Of a stretch of 36,886 nucleotides of DNA, positions 5,428 through 16,718 are shown piece by piece. Source of the DNA: an uncultured Mollicutes bacterium (GTDB lineage Bacteria > Bacillota_I > Bacilli_A > RF39 > UBA660). The stretch spans positions 1 through 36,886 of the forward strand of contig CAMMVQ010000012.1 in NCBI GenBank assembly GCA_946500425.1, read 5' to 3'. The translations under genes were made by a program, and so were the position numbers. Position 1 is the first letter of the stretch, and every line of letters begins with the position of its first letter. The notes under the pieces were generated by a model. The model was not told the origin of the DNA, made no database searches, and was given only the letters and a program-made list of their open reading frames with translations.

Positions 5428-6165
5428 TTAAATTCCTCCCATCTTCAATTGACGTCCAGTTTTAAATTTATCTAAACTCTCATTATGAGCTTTAATTATT
5501 TCATTAATTTGCTTACCATAAGTAGATGGTCCAACAAAAATAATTTCAACATTTCCGGATATAATCCTAAACCAGCAATCGTGTTTAGAATACCTCAAAT
5601 TAATAATATACAAATAAAAATATTCATCCATAAGATTAATTTTTCTTTCGACAAACTTTAAAAACTGCTCATGAGCTCCCGAATCAAGCTTTAAAAACAA
5701 AGTGTTTCCAAGTAAGCGATGTTCAAAAACCTCTTTTGAAAATCTAGCGTCAATCCTTCTTACATCATCATCATAAAATAATAAACTCAAATCATAATAA
5801 TACTTACTTAATATTTCGCTTATGATTTTATTACCACCTTTAAAATCTTTTGGAACTGACAAAACAAAATACTTATCATTAGTACTTTTTATTTCTATCC
5901 CAGGCAAATAATTATATTTTGGAAGTTTTTTACTTTTTACACTTTCTAATTTATTATATGCTAAATAATAATCTAGCAACTGTTTAGTCAAGACATCATC
6001 ATGATTCATATCAAAATCATCACTTATTTTATAACTTGATGGAATAGTAGAGAATTCACGTTTTTTTCCTCTAACGTTACATCTTAGGTTTTCATTAATT
6101 GTACCTACAACCGAAATAGATGTATAATCATTAGCATCTAAATATTTCTTCCCATTTATTTTCAT
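5428..6165 (-). CDS. Unknown 245-residue protein between the T-box and glyS
   Basis: I do not recognise this protein. It is soluble-looking, with no signal peptide or membrane segment. The middle holds a Tyr/Asp-rich stretch (KYYYDLSLLFYDDDVRRIDA) and the C-terminus is basic and short. Low-complexity composition is absent and codon use is ordinary, so it is a real gene. It begins directly after the T-box leader with a GAGGTGAT ribosome binding site and ends one base before the glyS start. It should therefore be induced together with glycyl-tRNA synthetase when glycine is short. That placement suggests a role related to glycine or translation, but nothing in the sequence shows which. Confidence 0.72.
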   Translation of the reverse strand: MKINGKKYLDANDYTSISVVGTINENLRCNVRGKKREFSTIPSSYKISDDFDMNHDDVLTKQLLDYYLAYNKLESVKSKKLPKYNYLPGIEIKSTNDKYFVLSVPKDFKGGNKIISEILSKYYYDLSLLFYDDDVRRIDARFSKEVFEHRLLGNTLFLKLDSGAHEQFLKFVERKINLMDEYFYLYIINLRYSKHDCWFRIISGNVEIIFVGPSTYGKQINEIIKAHNESLDKFKTGRQLKMGGI

Positions 6166-6179
6166 CTTATCACCTCATA

Positions 6180-6304
6180 ATAAAAAACTCTAGAAAATTA
6201 TAGGGACGAATTAAAATCCGCGGTTCCACCCTACTTATTCTAGAAGAATCGGCTTTTTTATATTGCTGTTAGGTTTCCAAGCCCGTCATCACATTTAATA
6301 TTAC
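6180..6304 (-). promoter_or_regulatory. Compact T-box leader controlling the orphan gene and glyS
   Basis: The minus strand carries the invariant T-box AGGGTGGAACCGCG at 6219-6232, which binds the NCCA end of uncharged tRNA. It is followed by the pairing partner CGTCCCT, and a longer hairpin (TCTAGAA ... TTCTAGA) surrounds both and ends in TTTTTT at 6182-6187. Only about 70 bases separate the predicted transcription start from the T-box. They form a small hairpin (GGGCTTGG ... AAGCC) containing a GGC triplet at 6281-6283 that could be a glycine specifier. A full-size stem I is not visible. The T-box element is certain; the reduced stem I and specifier are inference. Confidence 0.85.
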
Positions 6305-6310
6305 GAAAAT

Positions 6311-6341
6311 ATTATAGCATAGTTTTAGTTTATTTTAACAA
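6311..6341 (-). promoter_or_regulatory. Sigma-A-type promoter for the T-box/glyS operon
   Basis: TATAAT at 6311-6316 with an upstream TGC (extended -10), and TTGTTA at 6336-6341 with a 19-base spacer. It overlaps the last codons of recO and places the start of transcription near 6304. Confidence 0.6.
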
Positions 6342-7056
6342 TGTTTTTTAAAAACTTTTTACTTTTAAGATAAAGGCCCGTATACCTATCATAGTAATCA
6401 TCAATAAAATCATTTATTTCTCTTTTGACTTTATCTGATAATTCAAGTTTAGTAATTTTAGATATATCAACATACTTTAACATTCTAATTATTTTAATTG
6501 TTTTCTCACTGGCGATAAAATCATTCTCCATATGTTCTTTACATACAAACCCACCTTTAAACGCGGACAGTGTTACCACGTTTTTATTACCACATATAAC
6601 GCAGCCATCAAAATTTGGTGCAACTCCTAAAAATTCCAAGTACTTAAGTTCTAAAATATTAGTAATAACAACAGGATCATATCCTTCGTTTATCTTTAAA
6701 ACACTACTAATAAAAATATTATAAATATTAGCATTAGAAGATTGCTTAAAGACCTGAGTTGTAAGTTCTGATATAAAATTAAGAAAAGAAATTTTTTGTA
6801 TGTCTTTTTTTATGTTATTTAAATTATTAATTACATCAGCAGAAATAAGCGTAGAAAGTCCATTTTCTTTGTAGCTAACCTCAAATGAAGCATAAGTAAA
6901 AAGCTCACTTACACTTCTTAAGGGACTTTTTAATCTTTTAGCGCCCTTAACCATGAGTCCAATCATCCCGTCTTTAGTTATAACGTTAACTATCTTGCTT
7001 GACTCTCCATACGGTTTTTCCGATGTTATTATTCCATCAATCTTTCTTATCTCCAA
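6325..7056 (-). CDS. recO: DNA repair protein RecO
   Basis: RecO anneals complementary single strands and helps load RecA at gaps. The N-terminal OB-fold opening (IRKIDGIITSEKPYGESSKIV) followed by GLMVKGAKRLKSPLRSV is typical, as is the CVICGN zinc-type motif near the middle and the helical C-terminal half. Length fits the family. I choose the TTG at 7056, which has AAGGGAAG ten bases upstream and gives the family's usual N-terminus; the frame is open to a TTG at 7077 that lacks a ribosome binding site. The gene overlaps the end of yqzL, and the era-yqzL-recO order is that of B. subtilis. Confidence 0.88.
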   Translation of the reverse strand: MEIRKIDGIITSEKPYGESSKIVNVITKDGMIGLMVKGAKRLKSPLRSVSELFTYASFEVSYKENGLSTLISADVINNLNNIKKDIQKISFLNFISELTTQVFKQSSNANIYNIFISSVLKINEGYDPVVITNILELKYLEFLGVAPNFDGCVICGNKNVVTLSAFKGGFVCKEHMENDFIASEKTIKIIRMLKYVDISKITKLELSDKVKREINDFIDDYYDRYTGLYLKSKKFLKNIVKIN

Positions 7057-10548: not shown

Positions 10549-11718
10549 TCATTCTAAAGTCTGCGGAACATTAAGTAAATTAGGGTCTGTATTCCTATAA
10601 TCAGTTATATCCTCACACACTTTAAAAAACACGTCTACTAATATTTTACTATCATTAGCAGAAAAATTCAAAGTTTTTCTACTTATTATGTATTCTGATG
10701 TGTCTAGTTTAGCCTTTATCTTTTCTTCCGCTAACTCCTCCGCTTTCTTTATGGCTTCTTCTTTACTTAAAGTTTGTTTTTCCACCTTGGTTTTCCTTTG
10801 CTTTTCCACGCTAAAAGCAAAGGGAAAAACCTTATCTTTAATAAGCGTTTTTTTCTTTTCTAAATAAGAACTAGTATAGTTTTTTTTAAGGGCAAAATCC
10901 CTTCCCATAAAACTTATTATATAATTATTTTTAACCTCTGGTAAATACTTTATTTCTTCATAATAAAGCGGATATTCAACCTTTACCCGGTACCAAGTCT
11001 CAGCGTAAACCTTTCCTTTCGCCACCACTTGCCCTTTAACGGTTTCATCTTTTATTATGTCACCAGACACAATTATATCTCCTTTGGCAACATAATCATT
11101 CTTTTTTTTCATAATAACGCCTTTTGATGCTTCTACCTTAATTATTATTCCGCTTTTTTTAGCTACTATATGTCTGTTTTCAAGTTTTTCTTCACTTTTA
11201 TTTATTTTTCTTTCCGTTACTTTAACCGTTAATTTGCTACCCGTTCTTTCTATTTCCATCCATTCTATAACGTTTTTATTTTCTTTTATTATTTTATCAA
11301 TTATCTTTTTCCTTTTATTAAAGCTGGGAATAAACTTATACTTACTAATGTTATTACTTTTAAGTTCCTCACTAACTAATTTTCTTATGTCAGAATCATC
11401 ATGAACAATAACAACCTCAAAAGCTATGTTATTAATTACCCACAACAGGATTAAAGACAAGATAAAAGACAAGATAAACTGAAGGTTATGTTTTAAGAAA
11501 TGAACGTATTTTAAAACGCCGTACATCTTAATTATTTCAACGTCATAGATACTATTTTTATCCTTTATTTTCAAATAATCTTGATATGATATTTTTAATT
11601 TTATGCTGTGATAACTTATCTCTTTATACCCACTATAAGGAATTTTATTAAGAATAAACCTTTTAAAAAACAATTTGGGATTCTTACCGGTGATACAAAT
11701 CAAAACGTAACTATTCAT
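10549..11718 (-). CDS. yqfD: Sporulation protein YqfD
   Basis: YqfD (SpoIV-type) is a membrane protein of endospore-forming Bacillota produced in the mother cell; its mechanism is not known. The protein shows an N-terminal ~85-residue cytosolic domain, one hydrophobic segment at about 90-108, and a long extracytoplasmic part containing EWMEIERTGSKLTVKVTERK, a lipoyl-like VAKGDIIVSGDI turn and a C-terminal KEEAIKKAEELAEEKIKA segment, all family features. Length 389 is normal. It overlaps yqfC by eight bases, as a translationally coupled pair. The TGA stop is 13 bases before the ATG of the vanZ-like gene. Confidence 0.88.
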   Translation of the reverse strand: MNSYVLICITGKNPKLFFKRFILNKIPYSGYKEISYHSIKLKISYQDYLKIKDKNSIYDVEIIKMYGVLKYVHFLKHNLQFILSFILSLILLWVINNIAFEVVIVHDDSDIRKLVSEELKSNNISKYKFIPSFNKRKKIIDKIIKENKNVIEWMEIERTGSKLTVKVTERKINKSEEKLENRHIVAKKSGIIIKVEASKGVIMKKKNDYVAKGDIIVSGDIIKDETVKGQVVAKGKVYAETWYRVKVEYPLYYEEIKYLPEVKNNYIISFMGRDFALKKNYTSSYLEKKKTLIKDKVFPFAFSVEKQRKTKVEKQTLSKEEAIKKAEELAEEKIKAKLDTSEYIISRKTLNFSANDSKILVDVFFKVCEDITDYRNTDPNLLNVPQTLE

Positions 11719-11962
11719 AATAATTTTCTAAAGATATACTTTTTATGACTCCGGATATAACCACGAACTCTTTAAACATGGTTTCAATAACTAATTTATC
11801 ACCGTTAATCATTACTTTTTTATTATCCTTTATAATGGTAATTACATCATTACTAAAGTGACTAATTTTATCATAATAATATACCTTTACTTTTCCTTTT
11901 ATGATTCTTATTTCAAACTCATTGCACTCAACATAATCGTTTATAATCCTTTTTATGTTCAC
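11711..11962 (-). CDS. yqfC: Sporulation protein YqfC
   Basis: A small soluble protein of about 83 residues whose pattern (KVYYYDKISHFSNDVITI, then IVINGDKL-like and FKEFVVISGVIKSISLE) fits YqfC/YabP-type sporulation proteins. The position just before yqfD confirms this. I choose the GTG at 11962, preceded by GGTGATACTT; the frame is open to a TTG four codons upstream which would overlap the ribosome binding site. A sigma-E-like promoter lies immediately upstream, which fits the known sigma-E control of yqfCD in B. subtilis. Confidence 0.78.
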   Translation of the reverse strand: MNIKRIINDYVECNEFEIRIIKGKVKVYYYDKISHFSNDVITIIKDNKKVMINGDKLVIETMFKEFVVISGVIKSISLENYYE

Positions 11963-11977
11963 AAGTATCACCAATAA

Positions 11978-12039: not shown

Positions 12040-12240
12040 CTATACTGCGTTTCTTTCACGTTTCGCTGCCTTACGGCTATTTTTAATAGCCTCTTTTTTA
12101 GCGTTTCTTTTTTTAACTCCCGGTTTAATAAATTCTCTTTTATTCTTAACTTCAGAAGGGAGACCGCTCTTAGCAACTTTTTGTTTAAACTTTTTCCACG
12201 CTGCGTCAAAGTTTCCATTTTTAACTTGAACCGTTATCAT
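12040..12240 (-). CDS. rpsU: 30S ribosomal protein bS21
   Basis: A 66-residue highly basic protein starting MITVQVKNGNFDAAWKKFKQ and ending in Arg/Lys-rich helices (KNSRKAAKRERNA), which is the full bS21. It binds the 30S platform near the anti-Shine-Dalgarno end of 16S rRNA. The start ATG at 12240 has a GAGAGGGGGGAAAG ribosome binding site; the frame is open much further upstream but crosses its own promoter. It has a strong sigma-A promoter and its own terminator, and it leads the yqfC-yqfD block as in B. subtilis. Confidence 0.95.
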   Translation of the reverse strand: MITVQVKNGNFDAAWKKFKQKVAKSGLPSEVKNKREFIKPGVKKRNAKKEAIKNSRKAAKRERNAV

Positions 12241-12273
12241 TTTTCTTTCCCCCCTCTCTTTTTTACTAAGATG

Positions 12274-12302
12274 ATTATAACACCTAACATTATTTATGAC
12301 AA
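12274..12302 (-). promoter_or_regulatory. Strong sigma-A promoter for rpsU
   Basis: TATAAT at 12274-12279 and TTGTCA at 12297-12302, with a 17-base spacer. The transcript leader is about 30 bases and ends in a purine-rich ribosome binding site. Confidence 0.85.
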
Positions 12303-12323
12303 TATCTTTTTTTGTATTTATAA

Positions 12324-12360
12324 CAAAAAATGACAGTTTTTTGCTATAAACCATCATTTT
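12324..12360 (-). terminator. Terminator after the bacteriocin-like operon
   Basis: The stem AAAATGA..GTTT / AAAC..TCATTTT, with small internal TG mismatches, is followed by a run of T on the minus strand. It lies 11 bases after the second peptide gene. Confidence 0.7.
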
Positions 12361-12371
12361 ATTGATTTTTT

Positions 12372-12533
12372 CTAAAGCGAACAACTTCTTCCGCTAATTA
12401 GTCTTCTTAACCCACTTCCTAAATATCTTCCAACGTCGATAAACATTTTAAACCCACTAATTAAAGAGTTAATAAGACTACCAGTTATACTTCCTGCTTT
12501 TATGTTCTTTAATTCTCGCTTATTTAGTTTCAT
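12372..12533 (-). CDS. Bacteriocin-like peptide B with double-glycine-type leader
   Basis: A 53-residue peptide. The leader MKLNKRELKNIKAG fits the double-glycine leader pattern (L at -12, E at -8, L at -7, I at -4) with Ala-Gly at -2/-1, so the core would start SITGSLINSL. The core is about 39 residues, cationic, with small-residue spacing (G..LGSGLRR) and a C-terminal SGRSCSL with one Cys. I start it at the ATG at 12533, which has AGGAGG seven bases upstream; two earlier in-frame starts overlap that site. It is the last gene of a three-gene operon with its C39 exporter and peptide A. Function as a class II (two-peptide) bacteriocin or signal is inference. Confidence 0.75.
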   Translation of the reverse strand: MKLNKRELKNIKAGSITGSLINSLISGFKMFIDVGRYLGSGLRRLISGRSCSL

Positions 12534-12550
12534 CTTCATTCCTCCTTTTC

Positions 12551-12691
12551 CTAACGACACTTATATGGTCTTGAAAAACCATCAAAAAATCCTGCTAGAA
12601 ACGAAATTCCCGCAATTATTCCGGCGACAATCCATCCTCCAGCACCTGCCGCCCGGACCATTTTTAATTCTTTATTAGTCAATTTTTTCAT
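12551..12691 (-). CDS. Bacteriocin-like peptide A with double-glycine-type leader
   Basis: A 46-residue peptide overlapping the last 17 bases of the exporter gene and preceded by AGGAGG. The leader MKKLTNKELKMVRAA aligns with the double-glycine leader (L -12, E -8, L -7, V -4) but has Ala-Ala at -2/-1. The core begins GAGGWIVAGIIAGISFLAG and ends GFSRPYKCR: hydrophobic, glycine-rich with GxxxG-like spacing, one Cys near the end. The GGW...G..DGF.RP..C layout is like class II bacteriocin cores seen in gut Bacillota. No modification enzyme or separate immunity gene is visible nearby. Expressed with peptide B. Confidence 0.75.
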   Translation of the reverse strand: MKKLTNKELKMVRAAGAGGWIVAGIIAGISFLAGFFDGFSRPYKCR

Positions 12692-14654
12692 TATTTTCCT
12701 CCTTTACTTGACCATTTTCCAAAGTAATAAACTTATTAAAATACTTTTTATTAGACCCTTTATGACTAATTAAAATAATCGTTTTATCCTTAAAGTATTT
12801 TTTTATAAACGTAAATAAAAACGCTTCTTTTAATTCGTCTAATTGACTTGTGGTCTCATCAAAAATTATAACGTTACCACCGTTTACTAAGGCTTGAATC
12901 ATTAAAACGATTTGCATTTGTCCACCAGATAAATTAGAGTAAGTTTCGTCTATAATCATGCTTATATCAAGTTTAAAATGCTCTAAAAGGTCATTAACGT
13001 AATTAACTTCTTTTTTTCCTAAGTAAATGTTATCTTTAATGCTCATTTTAAAAAGTTTAGCGTTCTGTTCAACGTAAGTGATGCTTTTTCTTATCGTCAT
13101 TTCATCAAAGGTATTTAGTTTTTTTGCGTTTACGTATATACCCTTTTTAGCTTCTACTCCTTGTCTCATCAAAAGTTTAAAAATAGTGGATTTTCCTGAA
13201 CCAGACGGTCCCTTAACCATTACCCACTCTCCTTTTTTAACACAAAAACTAACCCGTTTTAAAACAAGTTTATCACCGTACTTAAAAGAAACGTTATGAA
13301 AGTAAAAGCTATTTATCAGAATTCTTTTAAAATTAGTTTTAGGCTCACCTTCTAAACTTTTTATCCTAGTAAAAGCACTTTTAAAATTAAAATATAGTGG
13401 TTGTACTCTTAAAAAGGCTTCTAGCGCTTCAAATAAAATGTTTTCTAACCAAACAATAAAAATAAGGTCATAAATTTTATGTTTACTCAAAAACAAAACA
13501 AATATTATTAAAGCGATGGAAAAACTTAACATGACCGATAAAAACAAATCCTTTTTATCACTTAACAAACTAACTTGTTTATACTTATTTATAATACTTT
13601 CATACTCATCAGTTAATCCCTCATAAAAATATCTTTCTTTCACGAGTGACTTAACGGTTATAACGTTAAATAGAACGTCAGTTATTTTTCCCGCTAATGC
13701 CTCGTTTTTAGCTTGTATTAAATAAGTATCATAAAAATTATTTTTATAAAAAGAATAATTAACCAAGATAAATATAACAATGATAAGTAAATTAATTAAA
13801 AACATCCAAAAATTATAAAGTACAAAAACAAACATTATACCAATTATTAATACAAAACTAACAAGTAAGCTTTCAACCACCACGTAAAGCATCTCTTTTA
13901 CGTAAGATAAATCATTTAACTTTGACATTAAAGCACCAGTACCATCACGCCTATACTTTTTATACGGGAGGTTAATTAACTTATTAATAACAGGGATGGT
14001 TAATAATCTATCAGTTTCTGTTTCAAACTCAAGAGCTTTTATTTTGGTATGATAATTAACTAATTCTTTGGTCAAAAGTAAAAATAATAAACATAATAAC
14101 ATAAAAATACAGTTGCTTACTTTAGGGTTTTCCGATACGCTTTTTAAAGTATTGGTTAAAAAGTAAGAGGAAGTAATTGTTAAAAGTGATAAAACAATAC
14201 TTAAGAAAAAGATTTTAATGGTCTCTATTTTATCTACTTCAAGGAAATCTTTTTCTAGCGTTTTAAAAGTAATGGCAATCCCCGTGTATCTTTCGGTAAA
14301 ATCACTTAAATTTACGTACGTAACTCTAGAAGCTGGATCCGCAACTAATATTTTATTTTTAGTTACCCTTATAACCACTACGAAATGCTGTAAATTTCCT
14401 TCGGTTATAACGTGTGCGATAAAAGGAAAGGCAGCATTTTTAAGGTCATAGTTCTTATATCCTTCAGCCATCAAGCCGTACTTTCTGGATAAATTTATAA
14501 TTTCATAAGCGCTTGTCCCATCTTGCTGAAAAGATAAGTTTTCTTTTACTTCGGCTAAATTAATACGTTTACCAAAAAGTCTTAGAATCATGGTAAGACA
14601 TGCCGCACCACAATCATTAGCCGACTCCTGATTAACAAAAAACGAGTTATCCAT
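12675..14654 (-). CDS. Peptidase-containing ABC exporter (C39 domain), bacteriocin type
   Basis: A 659-residue bifunctional exporter that cleaves leaders of double-glycine peptides and exports the core across the membrane. The N-terminal C39 peptidase has QESANDCGAACLTM with catalytic Cys15, His90 (LQHFVVV) and Asp106 (ADPAS). About five to six membrane segments follow at residues 145-410, then the nucleotide-binding domain with Walker A GPSGSGKST, signature LSGGQMQ, Walker B NVIIFDETTSQLD and the His of LISHKG. All catalytic motifs are intact. The end overlaps peptide A, so exporter and two substrates form one unit. Its ribosome binding site is TAGGAGGTTGATTAA; no clear promoter is visible between it and the tRNA terminator. 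Confidence 0.92.
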   Translation of the reverse strand: MDNSFFVNQESANDCGAACLTMILRLFGKRINLAEVKENLSFQQDGTSAYEIINLSRKYGLMAEGYKNYDLKNAAFPFIAHVITEGNLQHFVVVIRVTKNKILVADPASRVTYVNLSDFTERYTGIAITFKTLEKDFLEVDKIETIKIFFLSIVLSLLTITSSYFLTNTLKSVSENPKVSNCIFMLLCLLFLLLTKELVNYHTKIKALEFETETDRLLTIPVINKLINLPYKKYRRDGTGALMSKLNDLSYVKEMLYVVVESLLVSFVLIIGIMFVFVLYNFWMFLINLLIIVIFILVNYSFYKNNFYDTYLIQAKNEALAGKITDVLFNVITVKSLVKERYFYEGLTDEYESIINKYKQVSLLSDKKDLFLSVMLSFSIALIIFVLFLSKHKIYDLIFIVWLENILFEALEAFLRVQPLYFNFKSAFTRIKSLEGEPKTNFKRILINSFYFHNVSFKYGDKLVLKRVSFCVKKGEWVMVKGPSGSGKSTIFKLLMRQGVEAKKGIYVNAKKLNTFDEMTIRKSITYVEQNAKLFKMSIKDNIYLGKKEVNYVNDLLEHFKLDISMIIDETYSNLSGGQMQIVLMIQALVNGGNVIIFDETTSQLDELKEAFLFTFIKKYFKDKTIILISHKGSNKKYFNKFITLENGQVKEENNEKID

Positions 14655-14712: not shown

Positions 14713-14747
14713 ATAAAAAAATAAAAACTCTTGATTTTTCAAGAGTT
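14713..14747 (-). terminator. Terminator after tRNA-Arg
   Basis: A perfect nine-base-pair stem AACTCTTGA / TCAAGAGTT is followed by TTTATTTTTTT on the minus strand. Confidence 0.88.
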
Positions 14748-14757
14748 ATTTTTAACG

Positions 14758-14834
<77 letters not shown>

Positions 14835-14862: not shown

Positions 14863-14891
14863 ATTATACCTCAAAATAATAAATTATTCAA
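14863..14891 (-). promoter_or_regulatory. Sigma-A promoter for tRNA-Arg
   Basis: TATAAT at 14863-14868 and TTGAAT at 14886-14891 with a 17-base spacer. The -35 lies inside the last codons of gerM. The 5' leader of the pre-tRNA can form a GGATT..TTC / GAA..AATCC hairpin. Confidence 0.75.
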
Positions 14892-15840
14892 TATTTTTTA
14901 ACGTACTTTTTGTAATTTCGTTACCATCAACCGTAAATACTACTTCCTTAACATCATAATTATCCCTTACCGAAAGAGATATAGAATATATAACTTCTTC
15001 TAAAATGCTCTTACTTGAAGCATCATCAAACAAAAATTCATTAAAATTAAGTGTCAAAACCTCATCATCTAACTCGTAACTTAAAAGTTTGGTGTTGTAA
15101 TTTAAAAAGCTCATTAAATTAGTCTCATAAATATGAGAGGACGTTAACTCATCAACTATTATTTTTATTTTATCACGTTCATCATTACTCACCTTCGTAA
15201 CCGGGACATAATAATAACTGGTATTAGTTTTATTTACGTAATAAATCGTTGTTTCACTAACGTTTTTATAATTATTAACGTCATAACTTTTATTAATTCC
15301 GTCTTTTCTTGTAAATGGTTGAATTACATTTTTATTAGATGCTGGTAAGTAACTCAATGTTTTCCCGTCAATTTTAATATAAACGTTATTAACACCGTTT
15401 ACGGTAGTTAAATTATAAGTAATTGCCTCAATTGCTTTTGTTTCATTTTCTTTATTAAGTTCGTAAAAATCATTTGAAATATCAAGCGTAGCGTCTTGAC
15501 CTTCAATCGTTAAAGTGTTAATCTTCGTATCCGAGGGTAAAATGGCCTTGAAACCATTAGGAATCTTATCTCCATACTTTCCATCTATAATCAACAACTC
15601 AACTAATTTTTTAGCATATTGTTCATCCGTATAGGCACTAATGGGCGCACTAGTTCTTGCTACATATCCGTCTTTATCAATTAAAAACACTTCTTTTTGT
15701 TTAACTTGTGCTGCCGTTCTAACGGTTGTCTCTTCTTCGAGTGAATATTCTTTACTAGCTGGAAAAACAAGTAATAAAAGTAACAAAAGAAGCATTCCCG
15801 TGGTTCTAAAAATCTTGTTATAAGCAAATTTTCTTAGCAT
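14884..15840 (-). CDS. gerM: GerM-type spore protein with two GerMN domains
   Basis: A signal-anchor (about residues 13-28, leucine-rich) is followed by two repeats of the GerMN domain: the first at roughly residues 65-175 (ending GVNNVYIKIDGKTLSYLP), the second at roughly 200-312 (ending VKEVVFTVDGNEITK). In B. subtilis GerM is a mother-cell lipoprotein that joins the SpoIIIA-SpoIIQ complex and is needed for sporulation and germination. Here a membrane anchor without a lipobox Cys is seen instead. Length 318 is close to the family norm. The ATG follows GGAGGTAATC, and a sigma-E-like promoter lies just upstream. Confidence 0.85.
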   Translation of the reverse strand: MLRKFAYNKIFRTTGMLLLLLLLLVFPASKEYSLEEETTVRTAAQVKQKEVFLIDKDGYVARTSAPISAYTDEQYAKKLVELLIIDGKYGDKIPNGFKAILPSDTKINTLTIEGQDATLDISNDFYELNKENETKAIEAITYNLTTVNGVNNVYIKIDGKTLSYLPASNKNVIQPFTRKDGINKSYDVNNYKNVSETTIYYVNKTNTSYYYVPVTKVSNDERDKIKIIVDELTSSHIYETNLMSFLNYNTKLLSYELDDEVLTLNFNEFLFDDASSKSILEEVIYSISLSVRDNYDVKEVVFTVDGNEITKSTLKNIE

Positions 15841-15855
15841 GATTACCTCCAGTTA

Positions 15856-15884
15856 ATGATATGAAAAAACCGCATATAATATGC
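15856..15884 (-). promoter_or_regulatory. Sigma-E-like promoter for gerM
   Basis: GCATATT at 15878-15884 fits the sigma-E -35 consensus (kmATATT), and CATATCAT at 15856-15863 resembles the -10 consensus (CATAcAhT). The spacer is 14 bases. The -35 is part of the gerE terminator stem. Confidence 0.5.
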
Positions 15885-15890
15885 GATTTT
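15863..15890 (-). terminator. Terminator after gerE
   Basis: The stem ATCGCATA / TATGCGGT, extended by A/T pairs, is followed by TTTTTT on the minus strand. It overlaps the stop codon of gerE. Confidence 0.75.
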
Positions 15891-16095
15891 ATAAACTAAT
15901 CTCATTTAATTTTATAAGCTCAATTACCGCGCAAGCTCTTCCCTTAACACCTAATTTTTGCATTACATTAGATATATGATTTCTAACAGTTTTTTCGCTT
16001 ATTCCTAACTTTTGCGCTATTTCTCTAGTAGTTTTATTAGTTATTAAATAATCAAAAATTTCCTTTTCTCTTTTAGTTAGTATTGCCTTTCCCAT
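15889..16095 (-). CDS. gerE: GerE-like LuxR-type DNA-binding regulator
   Basis: A 68-residue protein made of a single LuxR/GerE helix-turn-helix domain: LTKREKEIFDYLITNKTTRE at the start, the recognition-helix region IAQKLGISEKTVRNHISNV and the C-terminal MQKLGVKGRACAVIELI. A stand-alone HTH of this size is characteristic of GerE, the last transcription factor of the mother-cell line in sporulation, which works with sigma-K. Its neighbours, gerM and spoIIIAH, are sporulation genes, which supports the name. A stand-alone LuxR-type regulator of another process cannot be ruled out by sequence alone. Confidence 0.8.
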   Translation of the reverse strand: MGKAILTKREKEIFDYLITNKTTREIAQKLGISEKTVRNHISNVMQKLGVKGRACAVIELIKLNEISL

Positions 16096-16174
16096 GCTTT
16101 CCCCACTTTCTTATAATAAGAGGTATTTTAATATTTTTTCTATATTATTTTATGTAGGGAAAGAATAAAGGGTA

Positions 16175-16693
16175 CTACTTTTGAAACTTAACGGACACGT
16201 AAACTTTATTTTCGTATTCTTTTTGGATCAATCTCATTACGTCGTTAGCAAGAGAATAATCATGATCTTTTTTCTTTACCGTTACGCTTATGTTATTACC
16301 ATCAATTTTGATAAATGACTCTAGCTTCATATCATTTTTTAATTTCTTTTCTAAACTTTCTTCCTTAGCCTTTATTTCATCTATTTGTTTAAGACCATCA
16401 TACGCGTTACTTTTTTCTTCGGTAGTGGCGTCCTTATTTGTTAATATCTCATTATATTCCGCCGCCAAAGCAGCCCTTTCTTCATCCGCTTCAACCTGAA
16501 GGGCCGTTAAAACGTCTTCTTCACTTACGTTAACACTGGCTGAAGCTTTTGTATTTTCGGCCTTAGTAGTTGTTTTATCTTTCGTATTTGTTGTGGTAGT
16601 AAGTAGCTCACTTGGCATGGTAATATAGTATACACTTAACACCAAAATCAAACTAAATAATGTCAAAAACCATAATTTTTGTTTATTAATCAT
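16175..16693 (-). CDS. spoIIIAH: Stage III sporulation protein AH (SpoIIIAH-like)
   Basis: One membrane segment (residues about 6-24, LWFLTLFSLILVLSVYYI) is followed by TMPSE, an acidic/Thr-rich linker and a C-terminal alpha/beta domain (EKKLKNDMKLESFIKIDGNN, then SVTVKKKD), the layout of SpoIIIAH. In sporulation SpoIIIAH forms, with forespore SpoIIQ, the channel between mother cell and forespore. At 172 residues it is shorter than the B. subtilis protein, mainly in the linker. The other spoIIIA genes are not beside it in this window. The start is the ATG at 16693 with TTGGAGGA upstream. A sigma-E-like promoter precedes it. Confidence 0.82.
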   Translation of the reverse strand: MINKQKLWFLTLFSLILVLSVYYITMPSELLTTTTNTKDKTTTKAENTKASASVNVSEEDVLTALQVEADEERAALAAEYNEILTNKDATTEEKSNAYDGLKQIDEIKAKEESLEKKLKNDMKLESFIKIDGNNISVTVKKKDHDYSLANDVMRLIQKEYENKVYVSVKFQK

Positions 16694-16718
16694 ATTATCC
16701 TCCAAATCTTTCTACTTA

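Follow-up and report, generated by a model that had tools for sequence, protein, structure and literature searches.

In build, the closest described systems to the locus analysed here are class IIb bacteriocins exported by peptidase-containing ABC transporters (PCATs), such as carnobacteriocin XY and lactococcin G, which likewise pair a C39 ABC exporter with two small peptides that differ from each other, have GG-type leaders and contain GxxxG motifs. SCIFF of Clostridia, the six-cysteine product of a radical SAM maturase, is likewise made from a small secreted-peptide precursor kept across a large taxon, a spread that argues against a simple antimicrobial role. The gallocin A/GIP system of Streptococcus gallolyticus also has two peptides with cysteines and a small third-gene peptide that resembles the effectors; immunity by mimicry or competition has been proposed for this gallocin immunity peptide, and cysteines are absent from most class IIb peptides (PMC10100652). 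Gallocin-type peptides each carry two cysteines joined by an intramolecular bond, and gallocin is reported to be regulated by adjacent genes (PMC8545106). Short immunity peptides with one transmembrane (TM) segment, encoded directly downstream, include CbnZ (42 aa), BrcI (53 aa) and AbpIM (55 aa) (PMC6957408), and published PCAT leaders end in GG, GA or GS (PMC7018657).

Here we describe a cassette of an exporter gene and two peptide genes, pepA and pepB (encoding peptides A and B), in the window, by which we mean the whole 36,886-nucleotide stretch presented above. We found no description of this cassette in the open-access literature. Judging from sequence comparisons, we lean slightly towards the view that it encodes a class IIb-like two-peptide effector and represents the minimal form of an order-wide secreted system. 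Like class IIb loci, it encodes two unlike peptides together with a single exporter, and in many of its relatives a short one-TM peptide gene lies directly downstream. Unlike them, it has a single covarying cysteine per peptide and is found, strongly conserved, in nearly all members of an order, and its antimicrobial function is putative. Neither A nor B has the two cysteines, near both ends, of the gallocin type; each has one. In contrast to SCIFF, the cassette pairs two peptides with a C39 exporter and lacks a modification enzyme.

The likeness to class IIb is one of build, and the corresponding family match depends on the leader. Against the NCBIfam model TIGR03949 (lactobin A/cerein 7B), pepA of the window scored 9.3 bits, under the 21.5-bit cut-off, and two pepA relatives with GG leaders passed it (30.1 and 23.6 bits) only with the leader included. 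Core sequences stripped of their leaders gave no family match.

An exporter and two peptide genes

An earlier note on this DNA had described an exporter with a complete C39 peptidase followed by two tiny genes, the first overlapping it, and all three reading frames were recovered in place (Table 1), with an overlap of 17 nt between pepA and the exporter gene. The exporter joins an N-terminal C39 domain with its catalytic cysteine (NDCG), a TM domain and an ABC domain (Walker A, GPSGSGKST; LSGGQ; Walker B, VIIFDE) in a single chain, as PCATs do. Its Pfam matches to C39 (6e-33), ABC_membrane (3e-14) and ABC_tran (7e-23) all exceed the cut-offs, and the closest solved structures are PCAT1 (6e-51) and pneumococcal ComA (1e-44). 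The model for the Mycoplasma Mbov_0121-family PCAT (NF045998) was the second-best NCBIfam match (E 2.5e-64), with a score of 217.7 that falls far under its 500-bit cut-off. Full-length relatives occur in all 17 other genomes of the genus, one of them with a single in-frame TAA (L006) and one clipped at a contig end (L018), and each genome of the genus has one C39 exporter, except for a weak second match in G010.

Table 1. Features of the cassette and its borders in the window
Feature	Position	Strand	Basis or remark
Exporter, peptidase-containing ABC transporter, 659 aa	12675..14654	-	Pfam domains
Exporter C39 peptidase domain	14259..14639	-	Sole C39 domain of this genome at E 1e-5
pepA precursor, 46 aa	12551..12691	-	AAGGAGG Shine-Dalgarno; profile match 6e-22 in own genome
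pepB precursor, 53 aa from ATG 12533	12372..12533	-	Profile match 4.5e-24
Bidirectional terminator-like hairpin, between tRNA-Arg and exporter	14726..14747	.	Operon's upstream edge
tRNA-Arg, upstream of exporter	14758-14834	-	
rpsU (ribosomal protein S21), conserved downstream neighbour	12040..12240	-	Pfam S21 1.6e-14
pepB-rpsU gap, 131 nt; gene C site in relatives, empty here	12241..12371	-	Three-frame reading, gene C search
rpsU promoter-like TTGTCA-17-TATAAT	12302-12274	-	Motif scan

With the hairpin and tRNA-Arg upstream, and with a promoter-like site of its own before rpsU downstream, the unit consists of the exporter, A and B. No immunity, regulatory or modification gene was found beside pepA and pepB in the window. 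Spore-type genes flank the cassette there: spoIIIAH-, GerE- and gerM-like genes upstream (14884-16705) and yqfC and yqfD downstream (10549-11974) make up a sporulation-type set in a 1.2 Mb genome. A link between the cassette and sporulation was considered and dropped, as other genera have rsmD or any of many different genes upstream.

The pepA precursor consists of the leader MKKLTNKELKMVRAA and the predicted core GAGGWIVAGIIAGISFLAGFFDGFSRPYKCR, with the cleavage site placed by alignment with relatives, and the pepB precursor of the leader MKLNKRELKNIKAG and the predicted core SITGSLINSLISGFKMFIDVGRYLGSGLRRLISGRSCSL. For pepB, the start listed earlier (GTG 12560) gives way to the ATG in Table 1, which is favoured by its 7-nt spacing from the Shine-Dalgarno sequence AAAGGAGG and by the starts of its relatives (MKLxxxELKxIKAG). 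The leader residues reported before, L(-12), E(-8), L(-7) and V/I(-4), proved correct for both peptides, as did the leader ends without Gly-Gly (Ala-Ala in pepA, Ala-Gly in pepB) and the single cysteine in each core. Both leaders thus have the hydrophobic residues of PCAT cargo at -12, -7 and -4, and both have Ala at -2.

Leader ends differ between the window's genus and the rest of the order. Within the genus (n=18), pepA leaders end in AG 13 times, in GG four times and in AA once, in the window, and pepB leaders end in AG 12 times and in GG six times; Ala accordingly stands at -2 in 14/18 pepA leaders (the AA of the window included) and 12/18 pepB leaders. It is rare elsewhere, where the counts are GG 73, AG 2 and GS 1 for pepA and GG 77, AG 1 and GS 1 for pepB. 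Among the 94 pepA sequences with a readable leader, the window's alone ends in AA. The Ala-tolerant cleavage put forward earlier as a new point is therefore partly a habit of the whole genus, which accounts for Ala at -2, and what stays singular to the window is the Ala at -1 of pepA.

Distribution across the order and co-occurrence of the cysteines

Chance reading frames can be ruled out, because pepA is present in 18/18 genomes of the genus, a pepB profile matches in 97 of the order's 102 genera and in 268 of its 288 genomes, as a rule in one copy, and both genes lie beside the exporter wherever the contigs allow a check among 98 loci (18 of the genus and 80 others). The order exporter-A-B is constant in all of these. 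Cassette carriers across the order mostly have genomes of 0.6-1.9 Mb. Six of the 20 genomes without a pepB match retain a C39 exporter, four at contig ends and two (G243 and G312) with diverged peptides. Scans of the class and phylum for relatives outside the order yielded weak, leader-driven matches only. In one genome of the genus (G008) the assembly breaks within the cassette, leaving the exporter and the start of pepA on one contig and pepB and gene C on the other (C53 and C7; loci L181 and L182).

Exporter-A-B is the minimal unit across the 98 loci, and its variable companions are a protein of about 140 aa before A and gene C after B. The former, with one TM segment, lies between the exporter and A in 53 of the 80 other loci and in none of the 18 of the genus (0/18), and is perhaps a shortened export accessory protein; as an HlyD-like protein it was rejected, with no Pfam match and an unrelated best PDB match at E 0.02. 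An example is L033 (accessory gene at 6051-6473), from Bacilli bacterium RGIG3038, an uncultured gut MAG of goat rectum, in which exporter, accessory gene, A and B stand upstream of ftsA-ftsZ. Within 800 nt downstream of pepB, rpsU was found in 18/18 loci of the genus and in 47 of the 75 other loci that could be evaluated. On the exporter tree the window's genus forms one clade and hence points to vertical inheritance, and a horizontal or phage/plasmid origin was rejected on this vertical pattern and the lack of any plasmid match at E 1.

The earlier note had named two grounds on which to abandon its reading, small genes that are not conserved and an exporter paired with other substrates. Neither was seen: A and B are conserved, and the gene order is constant. 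Its description of a compact bacteriocin-like locus is supported as regards a two-peptide PCAT cargo, but "compact" understates a core, syntenic, order-wide cassette, and the antimicrobial role is a prediction. Between close species pairs, identities are 78-96% for A, 71-95% for B and 61-78% for exporters, and rough NG86 dN/dS values, some with dS saturated or undefined, are lowest for A, followed by B, the exporter and, highest, C. Constraint within the cassette is thus strongest on the secreted products and weakest on C.

As in class IIb peptides, GxxxG motifs are present in the cores, in 122 of 128 for A and in all 128 for B. The median core charge is +1 in A and +3 in B. Exactly one cysteine was counted in 86 of 94 cores of A and in 92 of 97 of B. 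With the A cysteine scored at the RPxKC tail position, a definition set after the sequences had been seen and one that excludes an internal cysteine in nine pairs of genus g49, the C-terminal cysteine states of 128 A-B pairs, diverged relatives included, were both present in 115, both absent in 13 and discordant in none. The same holds inside duplications, as four tandem A-B-A-B loci have the C-terminal cysteine in both peptides of the first pair and in neither of the second. On the exporter tree the character needs four changes in A and four in B; the co-losses amount to only 3-4 independent events, in each of which the whole tail was lost, and the three independent contrasts on supported branches all run in the same direction (sign test p 0.25).

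A disulfide between the peptides had been called conceivable, and the concordance in 128/128 pairs strengthens this view. Because the C-terminal cysteines are kept or lost together, an A-B disulfide is a supported prediction and the simplest reading of the pattern. One cysteine per peptide leaves an intermolecular bond as the only one possible, and the A-B unit may perhaps be a covalent heterodimer.

Tandem A-B-A-B arrangements were seen in g49 at L209, L217, L231, L237 and L239, with a second pair that lacks both C-terminal tails. The internal cysteine of the nine g49 A peptides forms an FCG motif at the Asp of the DG turn, and the A peptide of the tandem second pair has its cysteine in place of that Asp.

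Gene C and the putative function of the cassette

Gene C follows B in 14/18 loci of the genus and in 34 of the 80 other loci, with short C-like genes in six more. It has a median length of 51 aa and one strong TM segment, and in most C-bearing loci its start lies within B, 7-17 nt (mostly 13-16) from the end. Its product ends in LGRxxGTxIRxI, resembling the LGRSLGSAIRRI of B through the common motif GRxxG[ST]xIR, and a profile comparison of C with B scored 27.9, with none of 60 column shuffles above 14.2 and no match to A. The N-terminal side is the more positive in 42/48 and the less positive in 0, predicting an N-in, C-out topology in which the B-like motif would face outside. These features fit C as a candidate immunity peptide coupled to B.

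The missing immunity protein that had been counted as a new point is true of the window, but C is present in 14/18 genomes of the genus and in roughly half of the other genera, and the window's lineage has lost it. No relative of C was found at E 0.05 in the window's 92%-complete genome, and a search for a C hidden elsewhere in genomes that lack it gave no convincing match. On the exporter tree, with L181 scored as C-lacking owing to its contig end although its other half, L182, has C, gene C switches between presence and absence about 19 times, with A and B retained. Gene C must therefore be dispensable somewhere, and looks odd as essential protection.

In the model that we propose, the C39 domain of the exporter would cut the leaders off both precursors while the transporter exports the cores, as expected from knowledge of the family. 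Peptide A would form a short hydrophobic Gly-zipper helix followed by a DG turn and the RPxKC tail, and B a longer amphipathic helix, cationic, that carries the motif GRxxGSxIRR and a C-terminal cysteine; the predicted mature peptides are about 31 and 39 residues long. Outside the cell, A and B would act as a single unit, probably linked through their C-terminal cysteines, as the co-loss suggests, and might insert into the membranes of competitors like class IIb two-peptide bacteriocins. Where present, C would be co-translated with B and sit in the membrane of the producer, anchored so that the B-like motif faces outwards; by analogy with GIP it could protect the producer by mimicking B. The window's species, which keeps the exporter, A and B and has lost C, would owe its insensitivity to something else, or would come to no harm from the pair.

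We place more confidence in A and B being joint PCAT cargo than in either of the two main readings of their function. The effector reading draws support from the constant exporter-A-B order, the canonical GG-type leaders, the GxxxG cores, the cysteine concordance and the features of C; it is weakened by near-universal single-copy presence and by purifying selection stronger than on the exporter, which are unusual for bacteriocins. The same order-wide purifying conservation, with the repeated loss of C, makes room for a housekeeping or signalling role, and the A-B pair may instead be a core secreted factor acting in signalling, at the envelope or in colonisation, with C as a regulator or membrane partner. 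We regard this as a serious contender, although not the favoured one. In its favour are the breadth of the distribution in mostly small genomes, the better conservation of A and B than of exporters between species pairs, the rpsU synteny and vertical inheritance, and the precedent of SCIFF, whose wide spread in Clostridia has been cited as an argument against an antimicrobial function (PMC8326336). Yet the 98 loci have no receptor, kinase or regulator as a constant neighbour, the build is that of class IIb (GxxxG, a cationic B, two unlike peptides per operon), and C resembles known short immunity peptides. Tentatively, and as a possibility of rather less than even weight, the cassette could be viewed as a core secreted factor of the order in which a disulfide-joined, tail-to-tail A-B heterodimer, with an optional membrane-anchored B mimic for self-protection, serves mainly a conserved group function rather than strain-level warfare.

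Two further explanations appear much less probable. A and B could be independent one-peptide effectors with a common exporter, their paired cysteines serving homodimers or a common maturation step; the Gly-rich hydrophobic core of A and the cationic core of B are each plausible alone, and the tandem loci show that the pairs are able to duplicate. This is unlikely, however, given that A and B occur together at every locus that could be checked and were duplicated as pairs, with concordant cysteines even inside the duplicated pairs. Least probable, in our judgement, is a cassette decaying in the window's species, with C lost and a pepA precursor that its -1 Ala perhaps renders poorly processed. 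The AA leader end, unique among readable pepA leaders and outside the GG, GA or GS rule of the literature (PMC7018657), and the long exporter branch of the window (0.77) would fit decay, but none of the three reading frames is disrupted, their Shine-Dalgarno sites are good, the catalytic motifs and both core motifs are retained, and other systems tolerate -1 Ala in leaders that end in GA.

With genomes of 0.6-1.9 Mb, and with an uncultured gut MAG as its named relative, this group can have few secreted effectors that are already known. A single-copy pair strongly conserved in about 100 genera of reduced genomes would either be an antimicrobial of unusual stability or serve as a signal or in colonisation. 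The A-B heterodimer predicted by the covarying cysteines would, if true, be new for class IIb peptides, and the presence and absence of gene C provide a natural set bearing on immunity by mimicry.

Further GG-leader peptides

In five loci (L212, L214, L215, L219 and L228, of genus g41 except for one of g68) pepA is preceded by one more short peptide with a GG leader, such as MQRMENEELLNYSGGGILITITNFLISIYSFAKAIISLKNLRG, a possible further cargo. Matches in mycoplasma-like genomes (family code f4) were rejected as relatives of the cassette peptides, since they are longer GG proteins of 94-130 aa whose likeness is confined to the leader and the beginning of the core. These f4 proteins lie at L203 4315-4665, L204 4048-4407, L205 3827-4111 and L206 3039-3431, three of the four directly after an rsmI-like gene, and may be cargo of the Mbov_0121-type exporter.
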